Source of the DNA: a virus
DNA: 44,830 nucleotides
Strand: one strand, 5' to 3'
IMG/VR virus record: IMGVR_UViG_3300024265_000098
Span: 1 to 44,830 of that record
A program made the translations under genes and the position numbers. Below are positions 13,950-44,830 of the stretch, one piece after another; position 1 is the first letter of the stretch; each line of letters opens with the position of its first letter. The notes below the pieces were generated by a model. It ran no database searches and had not been told where the DNA came from. It was given only the letters and a program-made list of their open reading frames with translations.

Positions 13950-13980
13950 CTGCGAACAGTGCGAAAGGTGAGAAGGGTAC
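13948..13980 (+). repeat. 9-bp repeat with AACTGC head
   Basis: Begins AACTGCGAA at the stop codon of the giant virion gene and continues with GTGCGAAAG and GTGAGAAGG units, ending five bases before the next ATG. The purine-rich units probably provide the ribosome-binding site of the 13985 gene. Confidence 0.8.
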
Positions 13981-13984
13981 ATCT

Positions 13985-14269
13985 ATGAGTATCAGCGACG
14001 AGGTAAGAGGTTGGTTGAAATTAGGGGGTTGGGTAATGGCTTTGCTTGTCGGCGGCGCTGTCGCGTGGGGTACGTTTTTCGGGGGGACAGAGGCCCGGGT
14101 GACGGCGGTCGAAAAAACCGTTGACATCCACGGAGAAAAGATTGAGGATCTTGCCGACCACGCATCGAAGGCTGAAGCTGATATGGTGTGGATCAAAGAG
14201 GCTGTTAAGGATTACGACGTTAAGCAAACGGCAGTCCTGGACGCGATCAAGGAACTAAAGAAACCATGA
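13985..14269 (+). CDS. Small membrane protein with coiled coil (lysis-cassette candidate)
   Basis: Predicted 94 residues. A single hydrophobic segment (about residues 15-33, GGWVMALLVGGAVAWGTFF) is followed by a heptad-like region (ARVTAVEKTVDIHGEKIEDLADH). This is the layout of phage accessory holin or spanin-like proteins. It is followed by overlapping genes ending in a two-helix holin-like protein. GAGAAGGG from the repeat upstream can act as the ribosome site. Confidence 0.6.
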   Translation: MSISDEVRGWLKLGGWVMALLVGGAVAWGTFFGGTEARVTAVEKTVDIHGEKIEDLADHASKAEADMVWIKEAVKDYDVKQTAVLDAIKELKKP

Positions 14270-14451
14270 TGAGAGAACTGAGCAAATGGCGCAACGCCCT
14301 GGCGGAACGGATCAGGCAACTAATGGTCGTGAAAGCCGACGCAGAGGACTTGCGTAAAACCGCCGACGAAATAATCAAGGATATCGACGAAGAAATATTC
14401 AAAGCAGACGAGGCGCTGGATAAAGATGGAAGAGACAGGATTGAGCGATAA
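14266..14451 (+). CDS. Small charged helical protein
   Basis: Predicted 61 residues, starting inside the stop of the preceding gene (ATGATGA), with the second ATG at 14269 also possible. The sequence is almost entirely charged helix (AEDLRKTADEIIKDIDEEIFKADEALDK), probably a coiled coil, with no membrane segment. It overlaps the downstream holin-like gene by 26 bases. Function unknown; tight coupling suggests it works with its membrane-protein neighbours. Confidence 0.5.
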   Translation: MMRELSKWRNALAERIRQLMVVKADAEDLRKTADEIIKDIDEEIFKADEALDKDGRDRIER

Positions 14452-14713
14452 GATTCTAAAAGCACTCCGCCAGAAGACCACATGGATGGGCCTGGCAATC
14501 ATAGTCAACGGGCCGCTTCTCGCCTTCGGCGTACCGGCTCAGATCGTTGGCGGTATAGTCGCAGTCGTCGGGGGGCTGGCGATCATCTTCCAACGGCAGG
14601 CCACACAGAAGGGGCAAGACAAAGACACGGTGATAAAGGCGCTCAGCGACGAAGTCGAAGGGCTGCGGTCAGTCTGCCAACGCCGAGCGTTTAACGCAAA
14701 CGACCACCACTGA
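14426..14713 (+). CDS. Holin-like membrane protein
   Basis: Predicted 95 residues. Two hydrophobic segments (about residues 19-35, MGLAIIVNGPLLAFGV, and 38-56, QIVGGIVAVVGGLAIIF) are joined by a tight turn and followed by a polar, charged tail. Size and topology match class II phage holins, and it is the last gene of the rightward late run. No endolysin is recognisable beside it. ATG 14426 lies within the previous gene and is preceded by purines (AAAGATGG). Confidence 0.55.
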   Translation: MEETGLSDKILKALRQKTTWMGLAIIVNGPLLAFGVPAQIVGGIVAVVGGLAIIFQRQATQKGQDKDTVIKALSDEVEGLRSVCQRRAFNANDHH

Positions 14714-14748
14714 AAACATGGTTGGTACCTCCGACCAGGCGCCGGACT

Positions 14749-14789
14749 GATACCCTGATATAAGGGTATGCGAGAAAGGCGTCACCTTT
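14749..14789 (+). terminator. Weak terminator-like hairpins after the holin-like gene
   Basis: A 7-bp inverted repeat ATACCCT/AGGGTAT lies at about 14749-14768. It is followed by AAAGG/CCTTT with a short T-run at about 14776-14789. The stems are short, but the position, between the late run and an independent promoter, fits termination. Confidence 0.35.
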
Positions 14790-14806
14790 TAATTGTCGAA
14801 TTTCTA

Positions 14807-14834
14807 TTGACAACTCTCTATTGTGTTCTATCAT
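14807..14834 (+). promoter_or_regulatory. Sigma70-type promoter for the radical SAM gene
   Basis: TTGACA at 14807-14812 and TATCAT at 14829-14834 are separated by 16 bases. The start point would fall near 14841, on top of ATG 14842, implying a leaderless transcript. TTGTC and GACAA (about 14793-14813) form an inverted pair overlapping the -35 box, a possible operator. Confidence 0.55.
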
Positions 14835-14841
14835 TCGGGAC

Positions 14842-15654
14842 ATGACAGATGAAAAGGTTATCCGCGTTTTCCCCCGAAAAACCAAGTGGTCACCAACTGA
14901 CGACCTTGCCTTCTTCGATGAGCCCCCGCTTTTCGACCTGCCCGACCTGCCGGTAATGGTATCTGTGACGTTCACCTGGGACATCAGGCGAGGGCGTGAA
15001 CTCTCGCGGTCCTGGGCTCGTAGGAGTAATGATGTTCGCCTTGGGGGACCTGCGTTTGACAGCCCAGGTAATGAGTTTGTGCCGGGGCGATTTCTCAAAG
15101 AAGGTGTGACAATCACATCGAGAGGTTGCCCAAAGAGCTGTAGTTTCTGCTACGTTAAAGGACGTGAGGGCAAGATCAGAGAACTGCCGATCCGCGACGG
15201 TTGGGTGGTCCAGGACAACAATCTCCTAGCTTGCTCGACAAGTCATATTAAAAAAGTCTTCAACATGCTGCACAGGCAACGTCTTGCAGCATCGTTCCCG
15301 GGCGGACTAGACCTGGACTACCTCAGAGAATGGCACATAGATGCCTTGAAAGAACTCCAGGTGAAGCATAAACTACGCGAGATATGGGTCGCTTTCGACG
15401 GGGTAAGTGGTATAGCGAAACTGGACAAAGCGACAGAATTGCTGGCAGATTTCACGCAAAGTCGAAAACATGCCTACGTCCTCATCGGTTATGAAGGGGA
15501 CACGACGAAAGATGCTGCCGATAGGTGTGAAAAAGTCTACAACGCCGGATTCCTGCCATTTGCCATGCTCTGGGATGGCAACTCAGACCCCGCATGGAAA
15601 CCCGTACAAAGACGATGGATCCGGCCGGCACTCTACGCGAGACCACAGTCATGA
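14842..15654 (+). CDS. Radical SAM family protein
   Basis: Predicted 270 residues from ATG 14842; the frame can be extended to a TTG at 14821, but that would lie within the promoter. Cys96, Cys100 and Cys103 form the CX3CX2C motif (CPKSCSFC) that binds the 4Fe-4S cluster cleaving S-adenosylmethionine. Downstream, LACSTSHIKKVFNML and GGLDLDYL resemble the strands and turns of the TIM-barrel core, and REIWVAFD is another likely strand. No SPASM cysteine-rich tail and no B12 domain are seen. The substrate is unknown: modification of a host or phage protein, tRNA or nucleotide are all possible. It stands alone with its own promoter between late and early regions. Confidence 0.8.
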   Translation: MTDEKVIRVFPRKTKWSPTDDLAFFDEPPLFDLPDLPVMVSVTFTWDIRRGRELSRSWARRSNDVRLGGPAFDSPGNEFVPGRFLKEGVTITSRGCPKSCSFCYVKGREGKIRELPIRDGWVVQDNNLLACSTSHIKKVFNMLHRQRLAASFPGGLDLDYLREWHIDALKELQVKHKLREIWVAFDGVSGIAKLDKATELLADFTQSRKHAYVLIGYEGDTTKDAADRCEKVYNAGFLPFAMLWDGNSDPAWKPVQRRWIRPALYARPQS

Positions 15655-15693
15655 CACAACTTCCAACCAATCAAATCACCGTCGGCGGCCGCC

Positions 15694-15975
15694 GTGAGCA
15701 ATAATCAATCGTCAATAGACAATAGACAATGCCTCTGCGGCCAGCCCGCCCACGTTGCAATTGTTATCGAGGAATTCCCGATCGTCTCTAACGACGTTCC
15801 GTTCGGCCGGCACGTATGCCGGCGCTGTCACTTCAAGCACAAGCAATTCAAAGCGGAGCAGCCTATCGAGTGGCTGGACTACTTCGAACCTCGACTGCCA
15901 CTATTCCCATTCGAGTACGGACTGCCTCAAAACGCGATACTCCGCAGGGGACGCGGTATTCCGTTTGAAAAATAA
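15694..15975 (+). CDS. Small zinc-ribbon-like protein
   Basis: Predicted 93 residues from GTG 15694; the start is uncertain because no strong ribosome site is visible. CLCG near residue 13 and CRRCHFKH near residue 43 make a C-x-C...C-x2-C-x3-H set suited to binding zinc. The rest is acidic and aromatic without a known domain. The first codons lie in a heptamer repeat (15700-15731), so its N-terminus (SIDNRQC) is repeat-derived. The minus-strand 16798-17040 product has a comparable cysteine layout and a similar SIDN start. Confidence 0.5.
   Translation: MSNNQSSIDNRQCLCGQPAHVAIVIEEFPIVSNDVPFGRHVCRRCHFKHKQFKAEQPIEWLDYFEPRLPLFPFEYGLPQNAILRRGRGIPFEK
15700..15731 (+). repeat. Heptamer repeat (AATAGAC type)
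   Basis: Four to five 7-base units related to TCAATAG/ACAATAG in tandem. The same family occurs at about 17024-17050, 25243-25268, 30100-30125 and 32811-32842. Confidence 0.75.
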
Positions 15976-16038
15976 AAGAACTTTTCTACTACTCATAAGT
16001 ACCGTGTCCCAAGAGTGTTACAACGCCCCTGTAATAAA

Positions 16039-16100
16039 TATGTGACACGCCCATATTTTACCCTTGACATATATGTGACACGTCGGCTATAATGTCACAT
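16039..16100. promoter_or_regulatory. Three ATGTGACA operator-like sites
   Basis: ATGTGACA occurs at 16040-16047 and 16073-16080, a spacing of 33 bases (about three helical turns), and inverted as TGTCACAT at 16093-16100. The second and third sites form an inverted repeat with a 12-base gap spanning the -10 box. This suggests cooperative binding by a repressor or activator, phage- or host-encoded. Confidence 0.6.
16064..16093 (+). promoter_or_regulatory. Consensus sigma70 promoter
   Basis: A perfect TTGACA (16064-16069) and a perfect TATAAT (16088-16093) are separated by 18 bases. A start point at about 16100 would place transcription exactly at the base of the structured RNA described next. 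Confidence 0.8.
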
Positions 16101-16190
16101 GCTCATTGATACCAAGTACAAACGATCCAAAAGTGCCGTCGAAGAACCCCGGGTATCCATGAGCAAGGTCACCGCTTCGGCGGCTTTTTT
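16100..16190 (+). ncRNA. Small structured RNA with its own promoter and terminator
   Basis: About 90 bases run from the predicted start to a T-run. TGCTCAT at 16100-16106 pairs with ATGAGCA at 16159-16165, then after one mismatch GATACC pairs with GGTATC, giving a closing stem of about 13 bp around a mostly unpaired 37-base loop (16114-16150). A CCGC-TTCG-GCGG hairpin and T6 (16172-16190) end the transcript. There is no credible open frame. The role is unknown: a regulatory antisense RNA, a protein-sequestering RNA, or the lead-in of a longer message if readthrough occurs. Confidence 0.65.
16172..16190 (+). terminator. Intrinsic terminator of the small RNA
   Basis: CCGC / GCGG closes a TTCG tetraloop and is followed by C and six T residues. 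The stem is short, but the UUCG loop is exceptionally stable. Confidence 0.7.
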
Positions 16191-16230
16191 AACTGCAAGT
16201 GTTTGAAAGTTCGAAAGGTGTGAAGGAAAG
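16191..16230 (+). repeat. 9-bp repeat with AACTGC head
   Basis: AACTGC is followed by GTTTGAAAG and GTGTGAAGG-like units directly after the small-RNA terminator. The repeat leads into the ribosome site of the 16241 gene. Confidence 0.7.
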
Positions 16231-16240
16231 GATCAGAGTT

Positions 16241-16456
16241 ATGTTTTCAGTGCAGCAGAAACGCGATATTTCAGCCTCAGTTCAAGAGACTTTACGGGCA
16301 ACGGGTCACCCAGAGCTACCAGAGACAGAGATAGAGTTCGTGCTTGACGTCAAGGGAAAGGAAAGTTGGTCTTGGGCAAAAATCCAGAACAACGGCAGCG
16401 TAGAGAATCCCTCGGTGAATCCACATAACGAAGCTCAAGACCCAGCAGAAGCTTGA
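16241..16456 (+). CDS. Small hypothetical protein
   Basis: Predicted 71 residues. ATG 16241 has GGAAAGG eleven bases upstream; the longer frame from 16199 would translate the repeat and is rejected. The N-terminal half (QQKRDISASVQETLRATGHPELPETEIEFVLDV) looks like a small helix-strand domain. WSWAKIQNNGS is a conserved-looking core, and the C-terminus is Asn/Pro-rich. No family was recognised. It is the first gene after the strong promoter, so it may be expressed early by readthrough. Confidence 0.5.
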   Translation: MFSVQQKRDISASVQETLRATGHPELPETEIEFVLDVKGKESWSWAKIQNNGSVENPSVNPHNEAQDPAEA

Positions 16457-16475
16457 AAGGGTGAGAAGGTAACGG
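16452..16475 (+). repeat. 9-bp repeat, about 2 units
   Basis: GCTTGAAAGG and GTGAGAAGG units overlap the stop codon of the 16241 gene. Confidence 0.55.
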
Positions 16476-16489
16476 TCTTTGAAAAGTGA

Positions 16490-16760
16490 AGAGGCAAAAC
16501 GGGTACTGGACGGACACATGCCCGTATTAACCTGGCGGTGAGCTAGGGAGAGTCACGGAGATAAACTCCGCTCCGCCAGGGAATCATTATCGCCAGGCTA
16601 CGAGGTGGCGGTGTGCACCTAAGAGACCTGTGGAGCTCCAAGACGTAAGTTGGATTAGTAGCGTGGCTGGCGTGAACGTTGTGTCCTACGGTAGGCTTGT
16701 CCCAGCAAGGCCGGACGCAAAAACCAACACAACAGGCGTCACCTCAAAGCCGGCGATCTA
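16490..16760 (+). ncRNA. Large structured non-coding RNA candidate
   Basis: About 270 bases have no credible gene on either strand but dense complementary segments. Pairs seen by eye: 16499-16503 with 16521-16525; 16531-16538 (CCTGGCGG) with 16573-16580; CGGAG/CTCCG at 16556-16570; 16591-16596 with 16667-16672 and 16597-16601 with 16658-16662, an 11-bp stem with a 4-base bulge; TCCAA/TTGGA at 16637-16654; GTTGTGT 16678-16684 with ACACAAC 16727-16733; CCTA/TAGG at 16685-16695. GAGGTG 16602-16607 could pair with CACCTC 16740-16745 as a pseudoknot. It matches no RNA class I can name. Strand is assigned from its neighbours. Confidence 0.55.
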
Positions 16761-16762
16761 AA

Positions 16763-16793
16763 GACAGAACACAGAATACAGAAGACAGAACAC
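16763..16793 (+). repeat. Heptamer repeat (CAGAACA type)
   Basis: About four 7-base units of CAGAACA/CAGAATA/CAGAAGA. The related array is at 40768-40811. Confidence 0.75.
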
Positions 16794-16797
16794 GAAC

Positions 16798-17040
16798 TTA
16801 CGCCGAGAGGCTGGCTTTTGAGATTACCCCGCCATAGGCGGGTTCGCAATATTCTACTTTGTCGGCAGGGTCACGAAAAGGAGTCCTGAAATGAGCATGG
16901 CCGCAACTCCGGCAGAAGGCACGGCCCGTAAACCCGTTTACGTAATCGCGGGGCCAGATCAGGCATTCAGTAGCGGGTACAAATATGATCCGAGCCGGGA
17001 GAGAAGCCCGGCGACAAAAATAGCAATTGTCAATCGACAA
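16798..17040 (-). CDS. Minus-strand zinc-ribbon-like small protein (candidate)
   Basis: Predicted 80 residues on the opposite strand to almost everything else, beginning at a TTG within a heptamer repeat. CYFC at residues 6-9 and CRSCGHAHFR about 35 residues later form two knuckles spaced as in zinc ribbons. A similar layout is seen in the 15694 product, which favours a real gene over a chance frame. There is no ATG and no visible ribosome site, which argues against it. It lies between two heptamer repeats (16763-16793 and 17024-17050), as if it were a separate cassette. Confidence 0.35.
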   Translation of the reverse strand: MSIDNCYFCRRASLPARIIFVPATECLIWPRDYVNGFTGRAFCRSCGHAHFRTPFRDPADKVEYCEPAYGGVISKASLSA

Positions 17041-17050
17041 TTGACAATAT
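17024..17050 (+). repeat. Heptamer repeat (AATTGAC/AATCGAC type)
   Basis: Tandem CAATTGT/CAATCGA/CAATTGA units; a divergent member of the AATAGAC family. It covers the putative start of the minus-strand zinc-ribbon frame. Confidence 0.65.
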
Positions 17051-17054
17051 AACA

Positions 17055-17219
17055 GTGACAGTCACGGCAAGGGAAATTACAGCGGCCTTGCGGCTTGAAA
17101 AAGAAAGGAGATTCCTGCTCCAAACTATCAAAAAAAAAGCACAGAAGTTACTAACCACCTCAAAGAAAGATCGGGCCGGTGGCCGTGGCCGGCCCGTAAA
17201 AACAAAAACAAAGGTGTGA
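17055..17219 (+). CDS. Small basic protein with AT-hook-like tail (candidate)
   Basis: Predicted 54 residues from GTG 17055. It is strongly basic, with a helical middle (RLEKERRFLLQTIKKKAQKLL) and a C-terminal GGRGRPVK that matches the RGRP core of AT-hook minor-groove binders. The DNA for RGRP lies in an 8-bp GC-rich inverted repeat (CGGGCCGG/CCGGCCCG, 17172-17196), so the motif could be a by-product of a hairpin. No ribosome site is evident, so this is tentative. Confidence 0.3.
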   Translation: MTVTAREITAALRLEKERRFLLQTIKKKAQKLLTTSKKDRAGGRGRPVKTKTKV

Positions 17220-17238
17220 AGGTGTGAACGGTAAAAGG
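17211..17238 (+). repeat. 9-bp repeat, about 3 units
   Basis: AAGGTGTGAAGGTGTGAACGG units stand between the AT-hook-like frame and the DUF2303 gene. Confidence 0.65.
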
Positions 17239-17267
17239 GACGAACCTAAGAAAAAAGGAGTTGAATT

Positions 17268-18092
17268 ATGTCAGACAACACAATCACAGGATTTCTAAGT
17301 GATATTGAACTTGGTAAGAACCATGCAATCTCAGTCGCCAAGGAAGTATTGGCCGATGGAAAGGAAAACGTCACCGTCAATCTTTCGCGGACACCGATAA
17401 TGCCTGAGAGAATGGAGTCGCCTAAGAGGGGGCATATATTCTTTACAGTGACCGGGTTTGTGAACTACTTGAAAAAGAACAAGACGGACAATACCCTGGT
17501 CCTTGCCGACGTTTCCGATTGCAGGATCGTCGCGGTGCTAGACGATAAGGCGAAAGACGGTTTCGAAATGATATACTTGAAGCCGGAAAGACACCCGGAG
17601 TTTGTGCTGCTGTCACAAATGCTGGATCAGCGTATGCCATTACCTCAATTTGCCGAGCTTGCGAAGCGAAATCGGCGACGACTGGGGGCGACAGAAGACG
17701 AGGGCCGTGACTTTGCGATCACGATGCAGCAGATCACGATATCCTCGAAAGTGACGGCTTGCATTGGATCCGGTAAGACCAATACGAACGGCGTGATGTG
17801 CACAACAGAGGTCAAGAGTGGCACGCCCAGGACTGAAGAGGTCGAACTGCCGGACACTATAACAGCAACAGTTCCTCTCTACATACAGAGACCGGAGCGG
17901 ACGTTCACGATCGACCTAACAGTTATTGCGAGCCAGACCGAAGCGAGAATTATGGCGGACGCTCCGGAACTCGAGGTCCTCAAACACCAGGAAATGACGT
18001 TCATTCTGGAAGAGGTTGTCGAGGGTCTTGGCGAAGTGGTCGAAGCGAGCGTCGGGCGTGTAAGCCATAATTGTTGGGCGTACAATAACTAG
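17268..18092 (+). CDS. DUF2303 (YfdQ-like) family protein
   Basis: Predicted 274 residues; AAAAGGAG eight bases upstream gives a strong start. HIFFTVTGFVNYLKKNKTDNTLVLADVSDCRIVAVLDD and MPLPQFAELAKRNRR match the pattern I know from the DUF2303/YfdQ family of phage and prophage proteins (Phe-rich beta segment, then an A-V-L-D-D strand, then a Q-F-A-E-F motif). C-terminal strands complete a mixed alpha/beta protein of normal family length. The biochemical role is unknown; members usually sit in early regions near recombination or single-strand-binding genes, as here beside an HNH-like gene and upstream of the putative origin. Confidence 0.7.
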   Translation: MSDNTITGFLSDIELGKNHAISVAKEVLADGKENVTVNLSRTPIMPERMESPKRGHIFFTVTGFVNYLKKNKTDNTLVLADVSDCRIVAVLDDKAKDGFEMIYLKPERHPEFVLLSQMLDQRMPLPQFAELAKRNRRRLGATEDEGRDFAITMQQITISSKVTACIGSGKTNTNGVMCTTEVKSGTPRTEEVELPDTITATVPLYIQRPERTFTIDLTVIASQTEARIMADAPELEVLKHQEMTFILEEVVEGLGEVVEASVGRVSHNCWAYNN

Positions 18093-18129
18093 ACATAATT
18101 CAATAAAGAGCGGAAAGGAGTTATTAATA

Positions 18130-18507
18130 ATGGCATCAAAACACGAACCAGTCGAATTGGGAAATATAGAGAGAGGCGAATTCGTCAGGGGAATCGGGCA
18201 GGCAGTTCAGGACGCCGAGAAGAAACTCCTAGAGCATGTTTCAGAACACGGCGAAAACGCAAAGAGCGGTGTCGTTGTTAAAATAGATATGGCTTATAGC
18301 AAGGAAAGCGGCGCGGTTTCCCTATTGACTGATATTGAAGTTAAGCCACCCAAACAACCCTCGAGGAAGAAGCTGACGATGGCGTTCATCGAAGAGAACA
18401 CAGACGGCACAGGCGCTTGTCTTTTCACCCAGGCAGGTGGCACGGGAGAGGGCAATCCGCATCAAGAGCCCATCCGCGACGCAGCCGGCGATCCTATAGG
18501 AAGCTAG
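18130..18507 (+). CDS. Hypothetical early protein paired with DUF2303
   Basis: Predicted 125 residues with GGAAAGGAG upstream of ATG 18130. The N-terminal half is helical (FVRGIGQAVQDAEKKLLEHVSEHG), followed by a beta strand KSGVVVKIDMAY and a basic patch PPKQPSRKKLTM. The Gly-rich C-terminus (AGGTGEGNPHQEP) is probably disordered. It lies 38 bases after the DUF2303 gene and is likely its partner in the same transcript. No family name is certain. Confidence 0.6.
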   Translation: MASKHEPVELGNIERGEFVRGIGQAVQDAEKKLLEHVSEHGENAKSGVVVKIDMAYSKESGAVSLLTDIEVKPPKQPSRKKLTMAFIEENTDGTGACLFTQAGGTGEGNPHQEPIRDAAGDPIGS

Positions 18508-18516
18508 GAGGTTACC

Positions 18517-18654
18517 ATGTTCAGTAGCATATTTCTGATTTATCACGTTTTTCGGACCATTGGTCGTTGGGTGATTGGCGGTCTTTTGTATTTGGTTTAC
18601 CCGCAAAAGGCTTTGGAGGATATGAATATGGAGGCTGAACATGGCCAAGAGTAG
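18517..18654 (+). CDS. Small hydrophobic protein
   Basis: Predicted 45 residues. CTAGGAGG at the right distance from ATG 18517 strongly supports translation. Residues 2-28 (FSSIFLIYHVF...WVIGGLLYLVY) can span a membrane once. The acidic tail overlaps the start of the HNH-like gene by 14 bases, and this tail also encodes the GGAGG used by that gene. Function unknown. Confidence 0.6.
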   Translation: MFSSIFLIYHVFRTIGRWVIGGLLYLVYPQKALEDMNMEAEHGQE

Positions 18655-19075
18655 CGTAGAACTCCGATGCCAGGCTTTGTGGTACGAGGCGGTTCACTTG
18701 CAGGGTCCGTATTGCCTGTCGTGTGGCCAGCCTGTCGCCGAGGCGCACCACATCGCTTTGAAATCAAGCGGCAATTGGGAAATCCAATTCGATACCGACT
18801 TTGGGATCACCTTATGCCCGGAAGAACACCGCGGCTGCGAGAACGCCCCTCACGTGAGCCCTGAGCGGTTCGAGAGTTTGGTACTGCCCAGGCTCCTCAA
18901 TACCATGAAGCCGGCCAGGGCGGCTAAGATACAAGCGTTCCTGAACCAGCCAGAGGTGTTGCCGAGAGACAAGCCGGACTTCAAGGCTATCCGGCGACGA
19001 TTGACCGCCCTGGTGAGAGAGTTGCAGGATGATATTGTTTACGAACCCGACGATTTAAGGAGCTATTATGCCTGA
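18641..19075 (+). CDS. HNH-like zinc-binding nuclease (NinG-type context)
   Basis: Predicted 144 residues with GGAGG upstream of ATG 18641. Cys25 and Cys28 (CLSC), His36-His37 (EAHHI), and Cys59 with His63 (TLCPEEH) give the C-x2-C...HH...C-x3-H framework of HNH endonucleases with a structural zinc. A helical C-terminal half follows. Phage members of this class process recombination or packaging intermediates. Placed in the early operon just before the origin, it could act in recombination like NinG, but sequence alone does not separate this from a free-standing homing-type HNH. Confidence 0.6.
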   Translation: MAKSSVELRCQALWYEAVHLQGPYCLSCGQPVAEAHHIALKSSGNWEIQFDTDFGITLCPEEHRGCENAPHVSPERFESLVLPRLLNTMKPARAAKIQAFLNQPEVLPRDKPDFKAIRRRLTALVRELQDDIVYEPDDLRSYYA

Positions 19076-19652
19076 ACCAACAGAGCAAACAACCGGAGAG
19101 GCGAAAGAGAAAGAAAAAGCAGATGAGTTTTGGAAGGACACGCCTCAGCATACGCGAGATTTTGCCGAGCGTCAATGCGCGATGAACCGGGCCCGGGAAG
19201 AAAAGGCCGCAAGAGAGAAGGAAGCAAGAACTTTGGGGAAAAAGGTAGACGGCGGCCCCGATGAAGAAAAGACCTGCCTGGAGCAGTTGCCGGAACAAAT
19301 GGCAAAGAATACGGGAGCTGCGCCGCGGCCCGAGGCGGCGGATATGTGCCCGGTCTGCCCGTATAAAAAGACTTGCCCAGCCGAATCGCCGGACGCCGCG
19401 GACCTGAAAGAGTGTTGTTTCGAAATGAGGGATGAGCTTTTAACGATGATCAACCGATTGGGAGGGTTGATCGTGAATCATCCGGCCATGATGGCGGGGA
19501 TAAATACGGAGACGAAGAAAGTTACGCCTATAGGCCCGGATAACGCCCTGCGGAACGCACTGTTGAGCTACCAGGGGCTGGAGGATGCTTTAATGAGACT
19601 GGGTAAGGTCGTGGAGGTGTTAGACGACGGTCAGAGCAAATATGCAAGATAG
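19068..19652 (+). CDS. Hypothetical early protein with Cys cluster
   Basis: Predicted 194 residues; TTAAGGAG precedes ATG 19068, and the start overlaps the previous stop by eight bases. The N-terminal 60 residues are highly charged helix, the middle has CPVCPYKKTC, a possible iron-sulphur or zinc site, plus a nearby CC, and the C-terminal ~75 residues form an alpha-helical domain (LLTMINRLGGLIVNHPAMMAG). No family was recognised. Confidence 0.6.
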   Translation: MPEPTEQTTGEAKEKEKADEFWKDTPQHTRDFAERQCAMNRAREEKAAREKEARTLGKKVDGGPDEEKTCLEQLPEQMAKNTGAAPRPEAADMCPVCPYKKTCPAESPDAADLKECCFEMRDELLTMINRLGGLIVNHPAMMAGINTETKKVTPIGPDNALRNALLSYQGLEDALMRLGKVVEVLDDGQSKYAR

Positions 19653-19675
19653 AATCAGTTACCGGATGGTGTGTA

Positions 19676-19870
19676 GTGTCATGTGCGGTTTTCCATTATC
19701 GGCCGACCTGTCATTATGACGACTTCCACGAAAAGTTTGCATATCATCCACCCCGGGAGCCCGACGAAAATGAGTTGGTTAGTTTCCACTATGTTAATTT
19801 GGTTTTCGACGCAATCGGGCAGGGCGGTTGTTCCGCCCGTATCCCGGGGGTTTTAACGATGAAGGTTTGA
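19676..19870 (+). CDS. Doubtful small ORF
   Basis: Sixty-four codons from a GTG with no good ribosome site. The product is rich in His, Tyr and Phe (FHYRPTCHYDDFHEKFAYH) and ends in the 9-bp repeat. A GGGCGG/CCGCCC hairpin lies near its 3' end. It may be a gene or only a spacer between 19652 and 19883. Confidence 0.25.
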   Translation: MSCAVFHYRPTCHYDDFHEKFAYHPPREPDENELVSFHYVNLVFDAIGQGGCSARIPGVLTMKV

Positions 19871-19884
19871 AAGGTGTGAAAGAT
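19862..19884 (+). repeat. 9-bp repeat, about 2 units
   Basis: GGTTTGAAAGGTGTGAAAG ends at the ATG of the 19883 gene and probably serves as its ribosome site. Confidence 0.6.
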
Positions 19885-20005
19885 GAAACTTTGGAAAAAG
19901 GCACGTATTGCTGTCGTAGCAACGCTGCTGATCATTATGAACGTCTCTTGGATTAGCCTATGGACTCTGGGTGTTATCCGTGAAATCCGTGTAATCTGTG
20001 GCTAA
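19883..20005 (+). CDS. Very small membrane protein
   Basis: Predicted 40 residues. MKLWKKAR is followed by a hydrophobic segment (about residues 9-31, IAVVATLLIIMNVSWISLWTLGV), so a single-pass protein with cytoplasmic N-terminus is likely. The last eleven codons are formed by a third short repeat type (TTATCCGTG/AAATCCGTG/TAATCTGTG, period 9), so its C-terminus (IREIRVICG) is repeat-derived. Confidence 0.45.
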   Translation: MKLWKKARIAVVATLLIIMNVSWISLWTLGVIREIRVICG

Positions 20006-20264
20006 AGAAGGACTTATATCAAATTGTGCGCAAAACTGTGAGTTTATGTGGATAACCTATTAGAAGTAGAGCCAAAACTATCAGAAAAATAGGACCTAAT
20101 GCAAGAAATGAAAGATTTAACAAAAGACTTTACCGCAAACCTACGGGTTATCCACATCAGATGTCTAGTATTGATAAGGGCTTACAAAAGAACTCCCAAT
20201 TTCACAGGGTATATGACTACTAATACTAATCTTTTAAATATTATAGAAGACAAAGGATACGGCA
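20006..20264. other. Putative replication origin with inverted DnaA boxes
   Basis: TGTGGATAA at 20047-20055 and TTATCCACA at 20148-20156 are both perfect matches to the DnaA-box consensus. With flanks they form an exact 12-bp inverted pair (20046-20057 and 20146-20157). The 3' side (about 20215-20256) is strikingly A/T-rich, a possible unwinding element. The genome encodes no recognisable initiator or polymerase, which fits use of host DnaA. A weak 61-codon frame overlaps the region. Confidence 0.5.
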
Positions 20265-20284
20265 ATGGATATCGAACTGAGTGA
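20099..20284 (+). CDS. Doubtful small ORF within origin-like region
   Basis: Sixty-one codons from ATG 20099 (AGGA six bases upstream), overlapping the next gene by 20 bases. The product is unremarkable (Thr/Asn-rich second half). It covers one DnaA box, so this stretch may be non-coding origin DNA. Confidence 0.3.
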   Translation: MQEMKDLTKDFTANLRVIHIRCLVLIRAYKRTPNFTGYMTTNTNLLNIIEDKGYGNGYRTE

Positions 20285-20540
20285 ATGCAAAGTTGATGAT
20301 TCCTCGATAAGTATGATCGGGAAATTCACCGCTACTTTTAAGGAACTCCGAGCGGACGGTACAGGCTACAGGGCCGAAGGGATAAAAGAAGCTGTGATCC
20401 GTGCGGTGGCCAGCGAGATGGCGGCGGCATACTTGGAACTGCACAGGATGGACATTATAGACGCAATGGACAAGGACAAGATTGTAAACGCGGTCCACCT
20501 AAAGATAATCGAACAATTCAGCATTTCAGGCCGGGCATGA
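20265..20540 (+). CDS. Hypothetical early protein
   Basis: Predicted 91 residues; AAAGGA nine bases upstream of ATG 20265. An N-terminal beta hairpin (IELSECKVDDSSISMIGKFTATF) is followed by two helices (KEAVIRAVASEMAAAYLELHRM and DKIVNAVHLKIIEQFS). No family was recognised. It is the first firm gene after the putative origin and is coupled to the next gene by an ATGA overlap. Confidence 0.55.
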   Translation: MDIELSECKVDDSSISMIGKFTATFKELRADGTGYRAEGIKEAVIRAVASEMAAAYLELHRMDIIDAMDKDKIVNAVHLKIIEQFSISGRA

Positions 20541-20743
20541 AGACCTTCACAGACGAAGATATTTGGACGGGCAGGACCGCAACGGGAAGGATCCCCGAGC
20601 GGACCTGTCCGTATAACGAGATCGGGTGCCTGGGGTACTCGAAAAGCTGCGTGAAGGAGCCGTGCCGGGAGTTGTGGATCTCCTGGACGCCGCAGAAACA
20701 GGTGTGTTTTAGACAAAGGAGTCGGAATGTCGGATCTACGTAA
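20537..20743 (+). CDS. Small cysteine-containing protein
   Basis: Predicted 68 residues beginning in an ATGA overlap with the previous gene. CPYNEIGC, SCVKEPC and a later Cys suggest a small metal-binding protein. It overlaps the next gene by 17 bases. Function unknown. Confidence 0.5.
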   Translation: MKTFTDEDIWTGRTATGRIPERTCPYNEIGCLGYSKSCVKEPCRELWISWTPQKQVCFRQRSRNVGST

Positions 20744-20945
20744 AATACTTGGACTGGAAGATACTGAGGCCGAAAAACGGCAACGGGAATTGGGCGAAAG
20801 GTTGTTCCACTTCGCGATGACAAACCCAGGTCAAGCAGAGGCGTTTCTCCGCATGAACCCAGAAGACTGCGCACCGCATCGCCCACGCAAGCACGTAGAA
20901 TCCAGAGTAATCAAACCGAAGCAGATCGGGGGAGAAACGAAATGA
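20727..20945 (+). CDS. Small hypothetical early protein
   Basis: Predicted 72 residues; AAAGGAG before ATG 20727 is a good ribosome site. A helical N-terminal domain (EAEKRQRELGERLFHFAMTNPGQAEAFLRM) is followed by a basic tail (RPRKHVESRVIKPKQ) that could bind nucleic acid. Not recognised. Confidence 0.55.
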   Translation: MSDLRKILGLEDTEAEKRQRELGERLFHFAMTNPGQAEAFLRMNPEDCAPHRPRKHVESRVIKPKQIGGETK

Positions 20946-21205
20946 AAGCATCGTACAGGTACATAAGGTTTGTGGAGGACTCAGACCCAGAGGCAAAACG
21001 GTGGTTCTGTGAGAATAAGAGGCACGGCGATCAGCTTGGGGAAGTGACTTACTATGAAGAATGGCGTCAATGGGTGATAGCGTTTCAACCGGGCTGTGTA
21101 TTCAACAACACTTGTCTGAACGATATTAGCGACTTCCTGAAGCAGTTGTCGGGTGCGACGGCAGGTGCGAAGGGTGAGAAAGGCTTGAAAGGTGACGATC
21201 GATGA
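20942..21205 (+). CDS. Small hypothetical protein with repeat-derived tail
   Basis: Predicted 87 residues from ATG 20942 (ATGA overlap, GGGGGAG upstream). The folded part (YRYIRFVEDSDPEAKRWFCEN...YYEEWRQWVIAFQPGCVF) is followed by GAKGEKGLKG, which is coded by 9-bp repeat units at 21163-21198. As with the PurD-like gene, the repeat has lengthened the reading frame. Confidence 0.55.
   Translation: MKASYRYIRFVEDSDPEAKRWFCENKRHGDQLGEVTYYEEWRQWVIAFQPGCVFNNTCLNDISDFLKQLSGATAGAKGEKGLKGDDR
21163..21198 (+). repeat. 9-bp repeat, about 4 units, in coding sequence
   Basis: GTGCGAAGG, GTGAGAAAG, GCTTGAAAG and a GTGACG remnant form the 3' end of the 20942 gene and sit just before ATG 21202. Confidence 0.75.
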
Positions 21206-21537
21206 GTCTGATATTTGTAATTCTGGGCGCTGTTGGCGCTGTTTTGAGCGCATTTAAGAACCGATGGTGCTTCGCTGTTTGGGCGCCGTGCAATCTGTAT
21301 TGGATATGGTTCAACTGGCCGGGTATTCAGAGTTGGGTGTTCCTGATAATGACGGCGAGTTGCCTGGCGGGATGGATGCTGTGGAAGGGAGGATCGATAA
21401 GAGAGCAACGCCTCCAGGAGGAAAATGCGATATTCAGGGAGGGATGGACGCAGTCGCAAGATACGATAATCGAACTCAAGGCAGAAATAAAAGAATTGGA
21501 AGATAGAGCGTCCGGATGTGTTCTGTGTACTGGGTGA
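21202..21537 (+). CDS. Membrane protein with C-terminal coiled coil
   Basis: Predicted 111 residues, ATGA overlap with the previous gene. Two or three hydrophobic segments (SLIFVILGAVGAVLSAF, CFAVWAPCNLYWIWF, WVFLIMTASCLAGWMLW) precede a charged coiled coil (REQRLQEENAIFREGWTQSQ...ELKAEIKELEDR). The topology could suit an inner-membrane spanin or a host-envelope modifier. The two lipoprotein genes nearby (21580 and 22204) would be natural partners if this is a lysis or envelope cassette, but that is inference. Confidence 0.5.
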   Translation: MSLIFVILGAVGAVLSAFKNRWCFAVWAPCNLYWIWFNWPGIQSWVFLIMTASCLAGWMLWKGGSIREQRLQEENAIFREGWTQSQDTIIELKAEIKELEDRASGCVLCTG

Positions 21538-21554
21538 AAATCGGTGGCTAAAAG

Positions 21555-21580
21555 TTAAAAAGTGCGAAAGGGACAGAAGA
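21555..21580 (+). repeat. 9-bp repeat, 1-2 units
   Basis: AGTTAAAAAGTGCGAAAGGGACAG precedes the lipoprotein start and supplies GAAAGG as the ribosome site. Confidence 0.5.
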
Positions 21581-21930
21581 TGAAAAAGAATACAGTGATA
21601 ATAGCGTGCCTCCTTGCAGTCACTTTAGCGGGGTGTGCGCCGATGACCAGGAGGAAACAGATCGGCCTGGCTTGCCTGATGGCGGCCCAGGCGGCGGACG
21701 GGTACACGACGAACGAGTACCTCCGAATCGGGGGGACGGAAGCCAATCCCCTCCTGGACGATCGGCCGAGTAGGGACCAGGTGTGGCTGTTCAAGGGCCT
21801 TGTAACGCTGACGTTGTACGGGCTCGGCGAGATCTTCGAAGACGACTGGGAATTCTTCTACGGGCTTGGAATAGCCGGCGGCGGTGTGGCGGCGGTCCAT
21901 AATAACCATTTGTACGAGAAATGGAGATGA
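21580..21930 (+). CDS. Phage lipoprotein
   Basis: Predicted 116 residues from ATG 21580. MKKNTVIIACLLAVTLAGC is a lipoprotein signal peptide with lipobox LAGC; cleavage before Cys19 and lipidation are expected. The mature part has hydrophobic stretches (LFKGLVTLTLYGLGEI and FFYGLGIAGGGVAAV) separated by charged residues. It might be a superinfection-exclusion or envelope-remodelling lipoprotein. The function cannot be fixed from sequence. Confidence 0.6.
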   Translation: MKKNTVIIACLLAVTLAGCAPMTRRKQIGLACLMAAQAADGYTTNEYLRIGGTEANPLLDDRPSRDQVWLFKGLVTLTLYGLGEIFEDDWEFFYGLGIAGGGVAAVHNNHLYEKWR

Positions 21931-22220
21931 ACGTGACAAAAACAAAGAAACCCGAAAGAACCAACCTGACATGGCCGGAACGCGTTAATATGCTATCAGT
22001 GAACCCCGACGCAGCAACCAGGGAAGATGTAGCGAATATGGCCGCGGACATACAGGATTTCATCAGGCTCTTAGTCGATATTGAGGAACTAAGGGTTGGA
22101 TGTGCAATGTCGATATCAGAAGGTGACAAAGAAAAGAAATGCGATCTACTCCACGGATGGTGCGAGTTGGTGCGAATGAAGTTTAGAGAAAGGGAAGTGA
22201 CGTATGAAGGATCGAAGTAG
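21921..22220 (+). CDS. Hypothetical early protein
   Basis: Predicted 99 residues; either ATG 21921 or the in-frame ATG 21927 could start it, both overlapping the lipoprotein stop. The protein is helical and charged (ATREDVANMAADIQDFIRLLVDIEELR), with three cysteines in the C-terminal half. No family was recognised. Confidence 0.5.
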   Translation: MEMNVTKTKKPERTNLTWPERVNMLSVNPDAATREDVANMAADIQDFIRLLVDIEELRVGCAMSISEGDKEKKCDLLHGWCELVRMKFREREVTYEGSK

Positions 22221-22503
22221 ACCGAAGGCGTGCGCTGGAATGAAGGCGCGGAACTGGTTGGTTGGGCTCGCTCTGGCGGTGATATGCTGGTTTGTACTTG
22301 CGTTGATAATCGGCATAGTCTTAGCCGGCTGTGCGCCGGCGCATGACGAATACCTCGCGGTGAGGTTCCAGGCGTTCAACGACTCCGTTCAGGACGGGCT
22401 TGCAGACTGCCGAACGGACCCCAATGCGTGCCGGCCGACGCTCGAGTTGATGGCGGGCGAGTTGGAAGTGTGGACGGAGATATTGACCGATCCGAATCTT
22501 TAA
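22204..22503 (+). CDS. Phage lipoprotein with long signal peptide
   Basis: Predicted 99 residues from ATG 22204, or 87 from ATG 22240. A basic N-terminus (MKARNWLVG) is followed by a long hydrophobic helix and the lipobox LAGC (ALIIGIVLAGC), so lipidation is expected. The mature part is short, acidic and has two further Cys (ADCRTDPNACR). Short lipoproteins of this kind include outer-membrane spanins, but here no nested arrangement is seen. Confidence 0.55.
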   Translation: MKDRSRPKACAGMKARNWLVGLALAVICWFVLALIIGIVLAGCAPAHDEYLAVRFQAFNDSVQDGLADCRTDPNACRPTLELMAGELEVWTEILTDPNL

Positions 22504-22548
22504 CTGCGAAGGTGCGAAAAGTTTGAAGGGTTTGAAGGGTATCAAAGG
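22502..22548 (+). repeat. 9-bp repeat with AACTGC head
   Basis: AACTGCGAA followed by GTGCGAAAA, GTTTGAAGG and GTTTGAAGG units, beginning at the stop codon of the lipoprotein gene. Confidence 0.85.
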
Positions 22549-22558
22549 AGATAGGTAT

Positions 22559-22840
22559 ATGACGCCTCATGAACTGAGTATTTTACTGCACCATTATTGC
22601 TCACACGGCGCTTTCCCAGGCCCTGGTGGACTAGAAGGTAATCCGGCCGACTTGTACAATAGTATATGCACGCAGTTCGTTGGGGACGGGATATTTGCGC
22701 CATGTGCGGGAAGCAGTGGGCGTGAAAACGGTTACGAAGTCACTCCCAAAGGGCGGGCGTGGTTGAGGTGTATATTGGAAACTCCACAACCAGCCCAGGT
22801 GTGGGTTGACGCGGCTGGTGAGGTTATTCCAGAAAGATGA
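22559..22840 (+). CDS. Small hypothetical protein
   Basis: Predicted 93 residues; AAAGGAG eight bases before ATG 22559 fixes the start and excludes the longer frame from 22523 through the repeat. HELSILLHHYCSHG is a helix, then EGNPADLYNSICTQFVGDGIF and GYEVTPKGRAWLRCI resemble the second half of a small winged-helix fold. A DNA-binding or anti-host role is possible but not shown. Confidence 0.55.
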   Translation: MTPHELSILLHHYCSHGAFPGPGGLEGNPADLYNSICTQFVGDGIFAPCAGSSGRENGYEVTPKGRAWLRCILETPQPAQVWVDAAGEVIPER

Positions 22841-22875
22841 ATTCTGTAATCCTGTCAAAGAAATAAGGAGATTTT

Positions 22876-23232
22876 ATGCCAAATCGAAAAGGGTTATTGA
22901 TTGCGAAGATCAGGGCCGCTGTGCCGGAAGATCTGAGACCGTATGCGGCGATTGTTATGCCCGTTCTGCAGGACATGGTGGCGGAGCAGGGGTGGGACGC
23001 GGTGCGGAAATTCTTATTCGCGTACAAGGGTAAGGACCGTAGCTGGGACCGTAAGCTCGAGCGGAGGATGACAATGAGACAAATGCTCGAATGGCGGCAG
23101 ATATCGTCGAATAGAAGAATCAACGAGCTTAAAGAATATAAGGCCAGGCGATTACAGGTGACGGAAATGCGGCGCAAGTTGGTTCAGCGGATAATGACCG
23201 CTGCGATCGAGCTTGGTATAGGAGCTTTATAA
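22876..23232 (+). CDS. Hypothetical basic helical protein
   Basis: Predicted 118 residues; AATAAGGAG precedes ATG 22876. It is almost wholly helical, with arginine/lysine-rich segments (RKLERRMTMRQMLEWRQISSNRRINELKEYKARRLQ) that could bind nucleic acid. Its stop overlaps the next start (TAATG). No family was recognised. Confidence 0.55.
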   Translation: MPNRKGLLIAKIRAAVPEDLRPYAAIVMPVLQDMVAEQGWDAVRKFLFAYKGKDRSWDRKLERRMTMRQMLEWRQISSNRRINELKEYKARRLQVTEMRRKLVQRIMTAAIELGIGAL

Positions 23233-23537
23233 TGGCGTACTTCTCAAACGGATCCGAAGGGATGCAGTATCAAAGCAAATACTGTGATCACTGCATTAAC
23301 TGGCGTGAAGACCCGGACGTTCCTAAAAGCTGGGGATGCCCAATCATCGATTTACACATGGATGGCAATTACGACCAGTGCAAAGACACGCCGGCGGGTA
23401 GATTCTGGAAGAAGGTTTTAGAGCAATTCATCCCGACCGGTGAGGACCACTTCGCAAAACAATGCCGAATGTTCCTGAAAAAACCCTGTGCCGATATTCC
23501 AGGGCAAATGAAGATGTTCGCGGAGGCTGCGAAATGA
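23232..23537 (+). CDS. Small cysteine-rich phage protein
   Basis: Predicted 101 residues. CDHCINW, GCPI and later Cys at KQCRMFLKKPC resemble a recurring small phage family with the pattern C-D-x-C-x-x-W...G-C-P-I (recognised by pattern only; function unknown). Zinc binding is likely. It lies in a chain of overlapping genes leading to the ASCH protein. Confidence 0.55.
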   Translation: MAYFSNGSEGMQYQSKYCDHCINWREDPDVPKSWGCPIIDLHMDGNYDQCKDTPAGRFWKKVLEQFIPTGEDHFAKQCRMFLKKPCADIPGQMKMFAEAAK

Positions 23538-23794
23538 ACCACAGAGAAGCTGCAAAAAGAACATGGTCGACAAGAGGGGACCTTGCAACGAAAGAAGAAA
23601 TAAAAATCGGCGCATTGCTGCGCATAGCCGACTCAACAGAAAAAATGTGCACGGACCGCGACCGTCTTGAACGAGAGCGAGCTATGTACAAGCAATGGTG
23701 GCAGGAAGAGCAGGTAAAGAATACTGACCTCAGAAGAACCATCGCAGGCCTGAAAGGTTATATCACGCGACTCAAAAAGGACCGCCCGAAATGA
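23534..23794 (+). CDS. Small coiled-coil protein
   Basis: Predicted 86 residues from ATG 23534 in an ATGA overlap; the longer upstream frame from 23462 would lie inside the previous gene and is rejected. It is highly charged and helical (DRDRLERERAMYKQWWQEEQ...DLRRTIAGLKGYITRLKK). Function unknown. Confidence 0.55.
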   Translation: MNHREAAKRTWSTRGDLATKEEIKIGALLRIADSTEKMCTDRDRLERERAMYKQWWQEEQVKNTDLRRTIAGLKGYITRLKKDRPK

Positions 23795-24447
23795 AAGAAC
23801 ATGGAATCCTAATGACGCCCGGCAACACTACGGCCATTGACGAAGGGCGCAAGGGCATGACGCGGCGGCTGACGGGCTTGGCAGAGATCAATAAAGAACC
23901 GGATCGGTGGACAATTATAGGCTCTTTAAGCGGTGGTTCTTCATGTGAGACTGTAGTATTTGAAGACGACCACTGTGAGAGGCGTACAGTTCGAGCCCCC
24001 TACGCCGTCGGCGACCGTCTCTACATCAAAGAGCCTTATCAAATCACCGAAGGCGACTTGGATACGTACCGCGTATGGGGAAAATACCAGAGAGACTACA
24101 AGGACTTCTCGGTTGGGTTGACAGTCGATGAATTCACGCGATGGTTCAAGCGAAAGAATCGGTTCGGTCGAACGTCCGGCATGTTCATGTACAAGTCGCT
24201 GGCCCGCAAGTGGTTGAAGGTGACGGCGGTTCGGGTGGAGCGGTTGCAGGATATCAGCGAGGATGATGCGATTGCAGAAGGCGTGACATTGGTAAAACAT
24301 ATTGACGAAGGTGGACACTGGGAATTCATGGGATTTCAGACAGACACCCCGCTTGAAGCATTTTTTGATGGCTGGCACTCCCTCCACGGCGACGACAAGA
24401 ACGAGTGGGTACGGGTTGTGACGTTTGAGAAGATTGTGAAGGAGTGA
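23791..24447 (+). CDS. ASCH-domain phage protein
   Basis: Predicted 218 residues, ATGA overlap with the previous gene. ILMTPGNTTAIDEGRKGMTRR, then VRAPYAVGDRLYIKEPY, then TSGMFMYKSLARKWLKVTAVRVERLQDISEDDAIAEGV is the typical order of phage ASCH (EVE-like) proteins: a P-x-x-x-x-A-I-x-x-G-x-K entry, a GD-x-L-y-v-r-E strand, and a C-terminal v-x-r-l-q-d-I-s-e-e-d-A-x-a-E-G signature. ASCH domains bind RNA or modified nucleotides; the precise target is unknown. Length and motifs appear complete. Confidence 0.8.
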   Translation: MKEHGILMTPGNTTAIDEGRKGMTRRLTGLAEINKEPDRWTIIGSLSGGSSCETVVFEDDHCERRTVRAPYAVGDRLYIKEPYQITEGDLDTYRVWGKYQRDYKDFSVGLTVDEFTRWFKRKNRFGRTSGMFMYKSLARKWLKVTAVRVERLQDISEDDAIAEGVTLVKHIDEGGHWEFMGFQTDTPLEAFFDGWHSLHGDDKNEWVRVVTFEKIVKE

Positions 24448-24448
24448 T

Positions 24449-24601
24449 ATGAGCAAGGATGCTGCAATGATCTTCTTTCCTCAGTACTGCTTCGACTGCC
24501 AATGTGCCTTCATAAGCAAAACAAGACATGCTCGATGCTGGGCTTGTAATGGGACCAATGTGATTAACTGTTTTCGGGAGATTTACGATGTTGACCTATA
24601 A
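24449..24601 (+). CDS. Zinc-ribbon small protein
   Basis: Predicted 50 residues; AAGGAG seven bases upstream of ATG 24449. CFDC and CWAC make a four-cysteine zinc ribbon (C14, C17, C31, C34), the only fold element in the protein. Overlaps the next gene by 14 bases. Confidence 0.6.
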   Translation: MSKDAAMIFFPQYCFDCQCAFISKTRHARCWACNGTNVINCFREIYDVDL

Positions 24602-24860
24602 GGAGCAACTAGAAAAATGGGTGGAAGGTAAATCGTGGCACATGGGCGACAAGGAGGATGAGAAAAGTACGTGCTGTCCAGACTTCTCATGCTGTGTGCC
24701 AGAATTGCAGTCGCCAAAAGAAGAGAGAGAACTATTTCAGGAATTATATCTGGCCGACAAGCATGAAGAATACGAGCGCATGTTGATGATGTTCCTGGGA
24801 AGAAGTTTGGCCGTTCTCGCACCCAAGACCAAAGTATATATCGCAGGCGGCAAGGGCTAA
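24588..24860 (+). CDS. Hypothetical protein with CCPDFSCC motif
   Basis: Predicted 90 residues from ATG 24588, inside the previous gene's 3' end with TTCGGGAG upstream. A C-C-P-D-F-S-C-C cluster at about residues 29-36 is preceded by acidic residues and followed by a helical half (KEERELFQELYLADKHEEYERMLMMFLG). The pattern recalls small phage proteins of unknown role that carry adjacent cysteine pairs. Confidence 0.55.
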   Translation: MLTYKEQLEKWVEGKSWHMGDKEDEKSTCCPDFSCCVPELQSPKEERELFQELYLADKHEEYERMLMMFLGRSLAVLAPKTKVYIAGGKG

Positions 24861-25066
24861 TGACATGGATAATCCCGAACAACTCAGAACTGCGAACGTG
24901 TGAAAGGTTTGAATATTTGAAAGGAGTAAACGGTTTGAAAAATGCGAAGATAAGCAGAATGAAGGCTGTATATTATTGGCTGTGCGGCAAGTTGTTGTGG
25001 TGGCTGGGGGGTCTGGGGGAAAGAAAGTGTGAAGAGTCTGAAAAAACTGAATGGTTTGAAGAGTGA
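24860..25066 (+). CDS. Small Trp-rich protein, start uncertain
   Basis: Open from ATG 24860 (68 codons), but the first 33 codons are mostly 9-bp repeat. The inner ATG 24959 gives a 34-residue product with a W/L-rich hydrophobic helix (VYYWLCGKLLWWLGGLG) and an acidic tail, itself made by a second repeat array. Either start is possible. This is probably a membrane-associated peptide. Confidence 0.4.
   Translation: MTWIIPNNSELRTCERFEYLKGVNGLKNAKISRMKAVYYWLCGKLLWWLGGLGERKCEESEKTEWFEE
24888..24945 (+). repeat. 9-bp repeat with AACTGC head
   Basis: AACTGCGAA followed by GTGTGAAAG, GTTTGAATA, TTTGAAAGG and GTTTGAAAA-like units. Confidence 0.75.
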
Positions 25067-25081
25067 GAAAGGTGCGAACGC
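25020..25081 (+). repeat. 9-bp repeat, six in-register units
   Basis: GTGTGAAGA, GTCTGAAAA, AACTGAATG, GTTTGAAGA, GTGAGAAAG and GTGCGAACG read in phase, ending two bases before ATG 25083. Confidence 0.8.
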
Positions 25082-25082
25082 C

Positions 25083-25241
25083 ATGAGTTGGAATAGATGG
25101 GACGAAAGGACGCCGGAGGAAAGAGACCAGGCCAGGTTTAGGTTGTGTATGATCTTCTTTGCAATCTACGCCCCAATAGCCTTACTCTTGTGCCTTATCG
25201 TAAAAGCCTTGCACCACTATGGATATCTACCTCTAAGGTGA
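25083..25241 (+). CDS. Small membrane protein
   Basis: Predicted 52 residues from ATG 25083. A charged N-terminus (RWDERTPEERDQARFR) precedes one hydrophobic segment (about residues 21-43, LCMIFFAIYAPIALLLCLIVKAL). The frame from 25029 would include the repeat array and is not preferred. Function unknown. Confidence 0.5.
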   Translation: MSWNRWDERTPEERDQARFRLCMIFFAIYAPIALLLCLIVKALHHYGYLPLR

Positions 25242-25242
25242 A

Positions 25243-25268
25243 AAATAGTCAGTAGGAAATAGACAATG
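25243..25268 (+). repeat. Heptamer repeat (AATAGTC type)
   Basis: AAATAGTCAGTAGGAAATAGACAATG runs into the integrase start codon; an imperfect member of the AATAGAC family. Confidence 0.6.
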
Positions 25269-26159: not shown

Positions 26160-26307
26160 TCTGTAGGTAAACGAGTAAGATTTCTGTAAAGGACGATGGA
26201 ACAATGGGTTAGGAGGGCAATCTATTTTGTATTTATTCTTGGGTGACATCAACAAGCATCTGAATTAGCTGGGAGTTTTCCAAAAGAACAGGTATAAAGG
26301 GCCACGG
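26160..26307. other. Non-coding gap after integrase, possible attP
   Basis: About 150 bases without a credible gene lie between the integrase and the packaging genes. This is a usual place for attP, but no tRNA fragment or clear arm-site repeat could be seen. Confidence 0.25.
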
Positions 26308-44613: not shown

Positions 44614-44830
44614 ATGAAGAACTTCAAATCGATAGTGCTGATATTGATGCTTGCAGGCGTTGGTTATGGCGCCGACGTGAAGTGGACGGCGGTTAGTGAA
44701 CTGACCGCCATTGCCGACGCGGACATTCTCCTGGTAGTAGACGATGTGGCGGGTACTCCCACCTCCAAGAGAATCACCGTTCTGAACTTCTTCGATACGA
44801 TCGACACATCCGCGAAACTGGCTGCAATCC
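44614..44830 (+). CDS. Tail-fibre-like protein, N-terminal part (continues at 44-2646)
   Basis: The ATG at 44614 opens a frame that runs off the window and continues in phase at base 44. Bases 44614-44704 plus 44-2646 give 2694 bases, an 897-residue protein. The first residues are basic (MKNFK), followed by a hydrophobic stretch (about residues 6-18) and a small-residue cleavage region (GYGA-D), a typical Sec signal peptide. A TAGGTG lies just upstream as a weak ribosome site. The start follows the 43518-44606 gene by seven bases, so the two are probably co-transcribed. A Sec signal on a tail-fibre-like protein is unusual. Confidence 0.85.
   Translation, partial: MKNFKSIVLILMLAGVGYGADVKWTAVSELTAIADADILLVVDDVAGTPTSKRITVLNFFDTIDTSAKLAAI
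44705..44830 (+). repeat. Terminal direct repeat, right copy (circular overlap)
   Basis: Identical to 44-169. The sequence just upstream (44614-44704) supplies the natural N-terminus of the gene that continues at 44-2646, so this copy has the authentic flank. Confidence 0.93.

Follow-up and report, generated by a model that had tools for sequence, protein, structure and literature searches.

What is made from the strong promoter that lies between the late and early genes of this uncultured phage: a small RNA that acts in its own right, or the leader of an early operon? The window, by which we mean the whole stretch of DNA that was analysed, corresponds to one virus record, 44,830 bases long, whose main genes lie on the plus strand in one orientation. 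Its map is circular, since bases 44707–44830 (~125 bases) are found again near the record start and a second, almost identical record, G001, spans the end/start junction. G001 is without 13980–26573 and therefore does not cover the promoter-leader element studied here (16038–16190). Bases 1–96, which adjoin the circular overlap, are an inverted foldback copy and an assembly artefact. Tail genes, followed by a gene for a 2051-aa protein, lie 5' of a radical SAM gene starting at 14821. Immediately 3' of the element come a conserved 71-aa gene, a 54-aa frame (start 16891) and the early gene DUF2303/phrog_210 (17268–18092; Pfam and PHROGs match), then many small genes up to a tyrosine integrase (25266), 9 kb from the element, and further on a terminase (27248) and a portal (30229), all on the plus strand. 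The initial annotation had placed the locus between the late and early regions, and judged from gene content this is a fair label.

The –35 box TTGACA (16064–16069, plus strand) and the –10 box TATAAT (16088–16093, plus strand) both match the consensus exactly and are separated by an 18-bp spacer, forming a sigma-70-type promoter. Sites were scored as –35 and –10 hexamers 16–18 bp apart against an assumed consensus, which may not be that of the host. At 12/12, TTGACA-18-TATAAT (16064–16093) has no equal in the window, where shuffles predict 0.01 such sites, a figure that, like all chance figures given here, is a guide only because dinucleotide shuffles ignore selection on neighbouring features. 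The perfect boxes of the initial annotation are thus borne out. Three sites in the window score at least 10/12: 14807 (11/12), 16064 and 28987 (10/12). One scan of 15600–17300 found 16064 as the sole site of at least 9/12; a second scan, of 15001–17400, added a single site at 15346, upstream of the 16064 promoter. No promoter-like site above 8/12 was found within 16190–17300, which leaves room there for low-scoring or non-sigma-70 promoters.

Operator-like repeats, absent from the initial annotation, are arranged over this promoter. An exact 12-mer, ATATGTGACACG, occurs on the plus strand at 16038–16049 (O1) and again 33 bp further on at 16071–16082 (O2), within the –35/–10 spacer. On the minus strand, an 8-mer inverted with respect to O2, TGTCACAT, forms a candidate half-site (O3, 16093–16100) that covers the end of the –10 box and the predicted start site and lies 20 bp from O2, centre to centre. 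The two spacings amount to about three and about two helical turns, which by arithmetic would place O1, O2 and O3 on approximately the same face of the helix. Exact 12-mer repeats no more than 60 nt apart average 0.24 per shuffled window; the real window contains several, mostly coding repeats, and the significance of O1 and O2 therefore rests on their position over the promoter. No further copy of the ATATGTGACACG type was found anywhere in the window at zero or one mismatch. The repeats are of the kind that marks a repressor-controlled early promoter, and suggest a repressor encoded by the phage or by its host; no repressor gene was recognised among the frames scanned with PHROGs and Pfam. 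They lend some support to the lysis/lysogeny control that the initial annotation had expected at this position, but nothing was found in favour of copy-number control, which it had offered as the other option.

Transcription is predicted to start between A16099 and G16101, 6–8 nt past the –10 box, and would give a leader or small RNA of ~92 nt (16099–16190, plus strand) with a predicted fold of –27.2 kcal/mol (z –3.0). At its 5' end, two arms (16100–16113 and 16152–16165), recognised both as an inverted repeat and in the fold, form a 14-nt closing stem in which 13 of the 14 positions are paired and one is a U–C mismatch. The enclosed loop (16114–16151) has weak inner pairing only. A stem with the transcript start at its base had been described before and stands, but the loop has 38 nt and not 37. 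Alone, stem and loop fold with –18.9 to –19.6 kcal/mol (z –3.7 to –3.9), and 0 or 1 of 200 shuffles did as well. Inverted repeats of this class (14-nt arms, at most one mismatch, loop of at most 60) occur once in the window besides the 1–96 foldback and four times in ten shuffled windows. A promoter of at least 9/12 with a 12-nt stem at its start is found once in the window (at 12/12) versus 6 times in 150 shuffled windows, and with promoters of at least 10/12 the combination is found in none of the 150. The structure of the neighbouring non-coding stretch 16454–16890 is not unusual (z –0.86).

Directly 3' of the stem lies a short candidate intrinsic terminator (16166–16190, plus strand; hairpin and T run at 16172–16190) of the form CCGC-TTCG-GCGG-C-TTTTTT, with four GC pairs, a UUCG loop and a U6 tail. 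The UUCG-capped terminator reported initially is thus present, but it is short and weak, with a local fold of –7.0 kcal/mol (z –1.5), and no rarer than chance: two such hairpin-T6 sites occur in the window versus 1.1 expected. A standard terminator scan, with a minimum of 5 pairs, passed over 16172–16190, and in a wider search its T run ranked 20 of 138. The promoter and the stem exceed chance; the terminator alone does not.

The first gene 3' of the terminator (16241–16453, plus strand; start codon common to relatives) encodes a conserved, unnamed phage protein of 71 aa (MFSVQQKR...HPELP...WSWA.I.NNG). It matched 125 viral loci from diverse phages at 60–72% identity, 80 of which were kept; these overlap the 19 relatives of the first search, and several of the loci are copies of one another. 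The protein matched nothing in Pfam, nothing in PHROGs (where it was scanned as the longer frame 16199–16453) and had no relative in the named-phage collection. None of the 19 first relatives carries a promoter of at least 10/12 within 300 nt upstream of the gene, and under a wider rule (spacer 15–19, within 350 nt) 9 of the 80 do, none at 12/12. In most relatives the gene lies inside an operon, in differing contexts and without a promoter of the 16064 type. By eye, some of the upstream stretches in relatives contain GC-rich hairpins.

The initial annotation regarded the locus as a self-contained small-RNA gene. The sequence does give good support to a strong promoter, located where late and early genes meet, that makes a short structured RNA, but self-containment is not supported: because the terminator is short, no other promoter of at least 9/12 lies near the start of the early operon and the loop has no significant pairing partner in the phage, the RNA could be no more than the leader of the early operon. 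The same weak terminator and the same lack of another promoter-like site near the early genes argue for an early promoter with a terminated leader and partial readthrough, and a short terminator would suit readthrough. Going by sequence, we therefore favour, with modest confidence, the following reading: the phage, which is tailed and encodes a tyrosine integrase, uses the element as its repressor-controlled main early promoter, and the short structured leader made from it is partially read through.

On this reading a dimeric repressor would bind O1, O2 and O3 and shut the promoter. With the repressor off, RNA polymerase would start at about A16099 and make ~92 nt of RNA, which would fold so that its stem closes right at the 5' terminus, with the terminator hairpin stacked on that stem. 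Most transcripts would end at 16190; the remainder, by readthrough or with the help of antitermination, would continue into the 71-aa gene, DUF2303 and the early genes beyond. A stem at the 5' terminus commonly protects an RNA from decay, and shielding of the early mRNA and of the terminated leader is the most likely function of this one; an additional role in trans for the short RNA is possible. Such an arrangement is by itself ordinary for temperate phages, and the locus would then combine an ordinary kind of control region with an orphan RNA. Against the leader reading, a passive leader would not call for so elaborate a closing stem.

A rival reading is a stand-alone gene whose product is the 92-nt RNA itself, pairing with phage or host RNA through the exposed 38-nt loop. 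In its favour, two hairpins cover nearly all of the transcript, so that the ends are closed and one loop is open; the 5' stem has the low z given above, and the promoter has the full 12/12. We nevertheless regard a trans-acting product as doubtful. The terminator is weak, Rfam gave no match, and the target search that the initial annotation had proposed for the loop, run here on the phage, returned no significant partner. The search covered phage targets only (the starts of genes, the leader and the genome on both strands), with shuffles for the plus strand. Pairing of the loop did not exceed that of shuffled loops, whether with 58 phage gene starts (fraction 0.77), with the surrounding leader (0.44) or with the whole plus strand (0.10); a 12-nt loop match to a tail gene near 1041 falls within that last chance level and was rejected. 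Between the whole RNA and any gene start, the longest perfect match has 9 nt (at 16891), a length reached by 255 of 500 shuffles. Regulation by antisense pairing within the leader fares no better. For P4 (CI RNA; PMC4825925) and P1/P7 (c4 RNA; PMC12197685), short structured RNAs are described within the leaders of early or immunity operons, and the element resembles them in this respect; unlike those RNAs, which pair with nearby leader sequence in the accounts cited, it lacks significant complementarity to its own leader, and no c4 match at the element was found in Rfam.

The remaining readings use the same segment differently. A 35-codon frame (16099–16206, plus strand) runs through stem and terminator and could be a leaderless small protein gene: its ATG would begin at the predicted start, A16099, 6 nt past the –10 box, the frame stays open to within 34 nt of the 71-aa gene, and translation would block the terminator, making it an attenuator. 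Its coding score exceeds 85% of wrong-frame segments but is also below 84% of true-frame segments, and has little power here because accepted small genes such as the one at 16241 also score low. As chance often gives open frames of 35 codons, the region of the start codon is part of the stem and the phage collection contains no relative at E up to 1, we judge such a gene unlikely. An RNA-only (put-like) or Q-like antitermination leader, in which the nascent RNA or a promoter-bound protein would make polymerase ignore this terminator and later ones, is less probable still. It would account for the position just 3' of an early promoter, for the similar size and for the two predicted hairpins; AACGAT (16121–16126), at +23 to +28 from A16099, also fits the NANNAT reported at those positions of putL (PMC9378689). 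Yet NANNAT fits by chance about once per 64 positions, the start site is itself a prediction, and we take the fit for a coincidence. The second hairpin, moreover, carries a U6 tail and looks like a terminator, whereas the two stem-loops of put RNA act on polymerase and have no terminator function, and no put or Q relative turned up in the general scans. It is most improbable that the role of the inverted repeat and the 12-mers is confined to the DNA level (protein sites, looping or recombination) and that the RNA fold is incidental. The 12-mers and the inverted 8-mer pair do look like DNA operators, but the beginning of the 14-nt arms coincides with the predicted start site, the hairpin-T6 comes straight after these arms, and the integrase gene is distant.

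Known phage loci resemble the proposed early promoter with a structured leader in several ways. At the isrK locus of the Salmonella prophage Gifsy-1, transcription from one phage promoter yields a short RNA where it terminates and an operon mRNA where it reads through, as outlined in PMC4825925. The element shares with it the single promoter and, by prediction, the short RNA with its candidate intrinsic terminator; partial readthrough into a small ORF and the phage genes after it may be common to both. The two are compared by arrangement; unlike IsrK, which in that outline acts in trans on its own readthrough mRNA, the element offered no counterpart to this action. Lambdoid PR', with tR' and Q, likewise combines a strong promoter, a short leader and a terminator ahead of an operon, and has a protein site in the –35/–10 spacer (PMC6606751), where the element has only the predicted site O2; in contrast, PR' is a late promoter and the element probably an early one, and no Q gene was recognised in the record. 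HK022 putL RNA, as described in PMC9378689, is structured, of similar length and placed just 3' of an early promoter. By description it has two long stem-loops, unlike the element, which has one long stem with a 38-nt loop and a terminator-like hairpin.

Searches for relatives of the element itself found none in the phage and plasmid nucleotide collections. Rfam 15 gave no match in the window at curated score and, up to E 10, four matches within 15600–17300 that all lie outside the element; neither the stem pattern nor the promoter-operator pattern was found in the viral collection. On the strength of Rfam 15 and the literature searched, the RNA resembles no described family and appears to be an orphan. 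The 14 related records are without the element, with only two 14-nt matches, both in one record (E 0.098). Relatives of the terminase (53–59% identity) and portal (31–55%) occur in about a dozen viral records, but the genes flanking the element are not common to these, apart from weak radical SAM matches and a few later early genes. Searches of the viral collection with DUF2303 and with the radical SAM protein gave no relatives, and neither did searches of the genome collection with DUF2303 and the terminase. Under a loose architecture rule, 10 terminase-bearing relatives (G003–G006, G008–G011, G014 and G015; the shorter G002, G007, G012 and G013 were left out), scanned as separate pieces so that sites across cuts would be missed, gave five candidates in four records, with promoters of 9–10/12. 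All five were judged not equivalent; the nearest, in G010, shows by eye no hairpin ahead of the T6 that follows its 3' arm, and the structural genes of that record are on the other strand.

If confirmed, the element would represent the switch into early expression in a clade of uncultured phages, and would provide a compact promoter-leader-terminator cassette; about a dozen metagenomic records have the structural genes of this clade in common, but not its early region. A bolder version, which we think rather unlikely, is that the 5' stem and 38-nt loop make up a novel phage RNA whose target is either polymerase in the act of transcription or the readthrough mRNA. Such an RNA would resemble put or IsrK in function and neither in sequence, and RNA and repressor together would decide early entry in a clade far from the lambdoid phages.

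Several minor features were also observed. The 3' arm of the closing stem, with an in-frame ATG (16159), is similar over 23 nt (74%) to the beginning of the 54-aa frame at 16891, which makes the 5' arm complementary to that beginning for 9 nt, a match that is not significant. The 11/12 promoter TTGACA-16-TATCAT at 14807–14840 lies immediately 5' of the radical SAM gene, which may be expressed on its own from it. A 28-nt repeat, 86% identical between its copies (15697–15724 and 17022–17049), flanks the element on both sides; both copies carry ATTGTC/GACAAT palindromes and are possibly sites for another regulator. In the relative G004, a tRNA-like piece beside the integrase (L016, ~1270–1420), which we take to be the 3' half of a glycine tRNA gene, lies within an inverted repeat and is likely an attachment site. 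Finally, short spacers of the type GTGTGAAGG, GTTTGAAGG and GTGCGAAGG recur in the window, at 16218, 17214, 17222, 26998, 27015 and elsewhere, and several of them directly precede gene starts.
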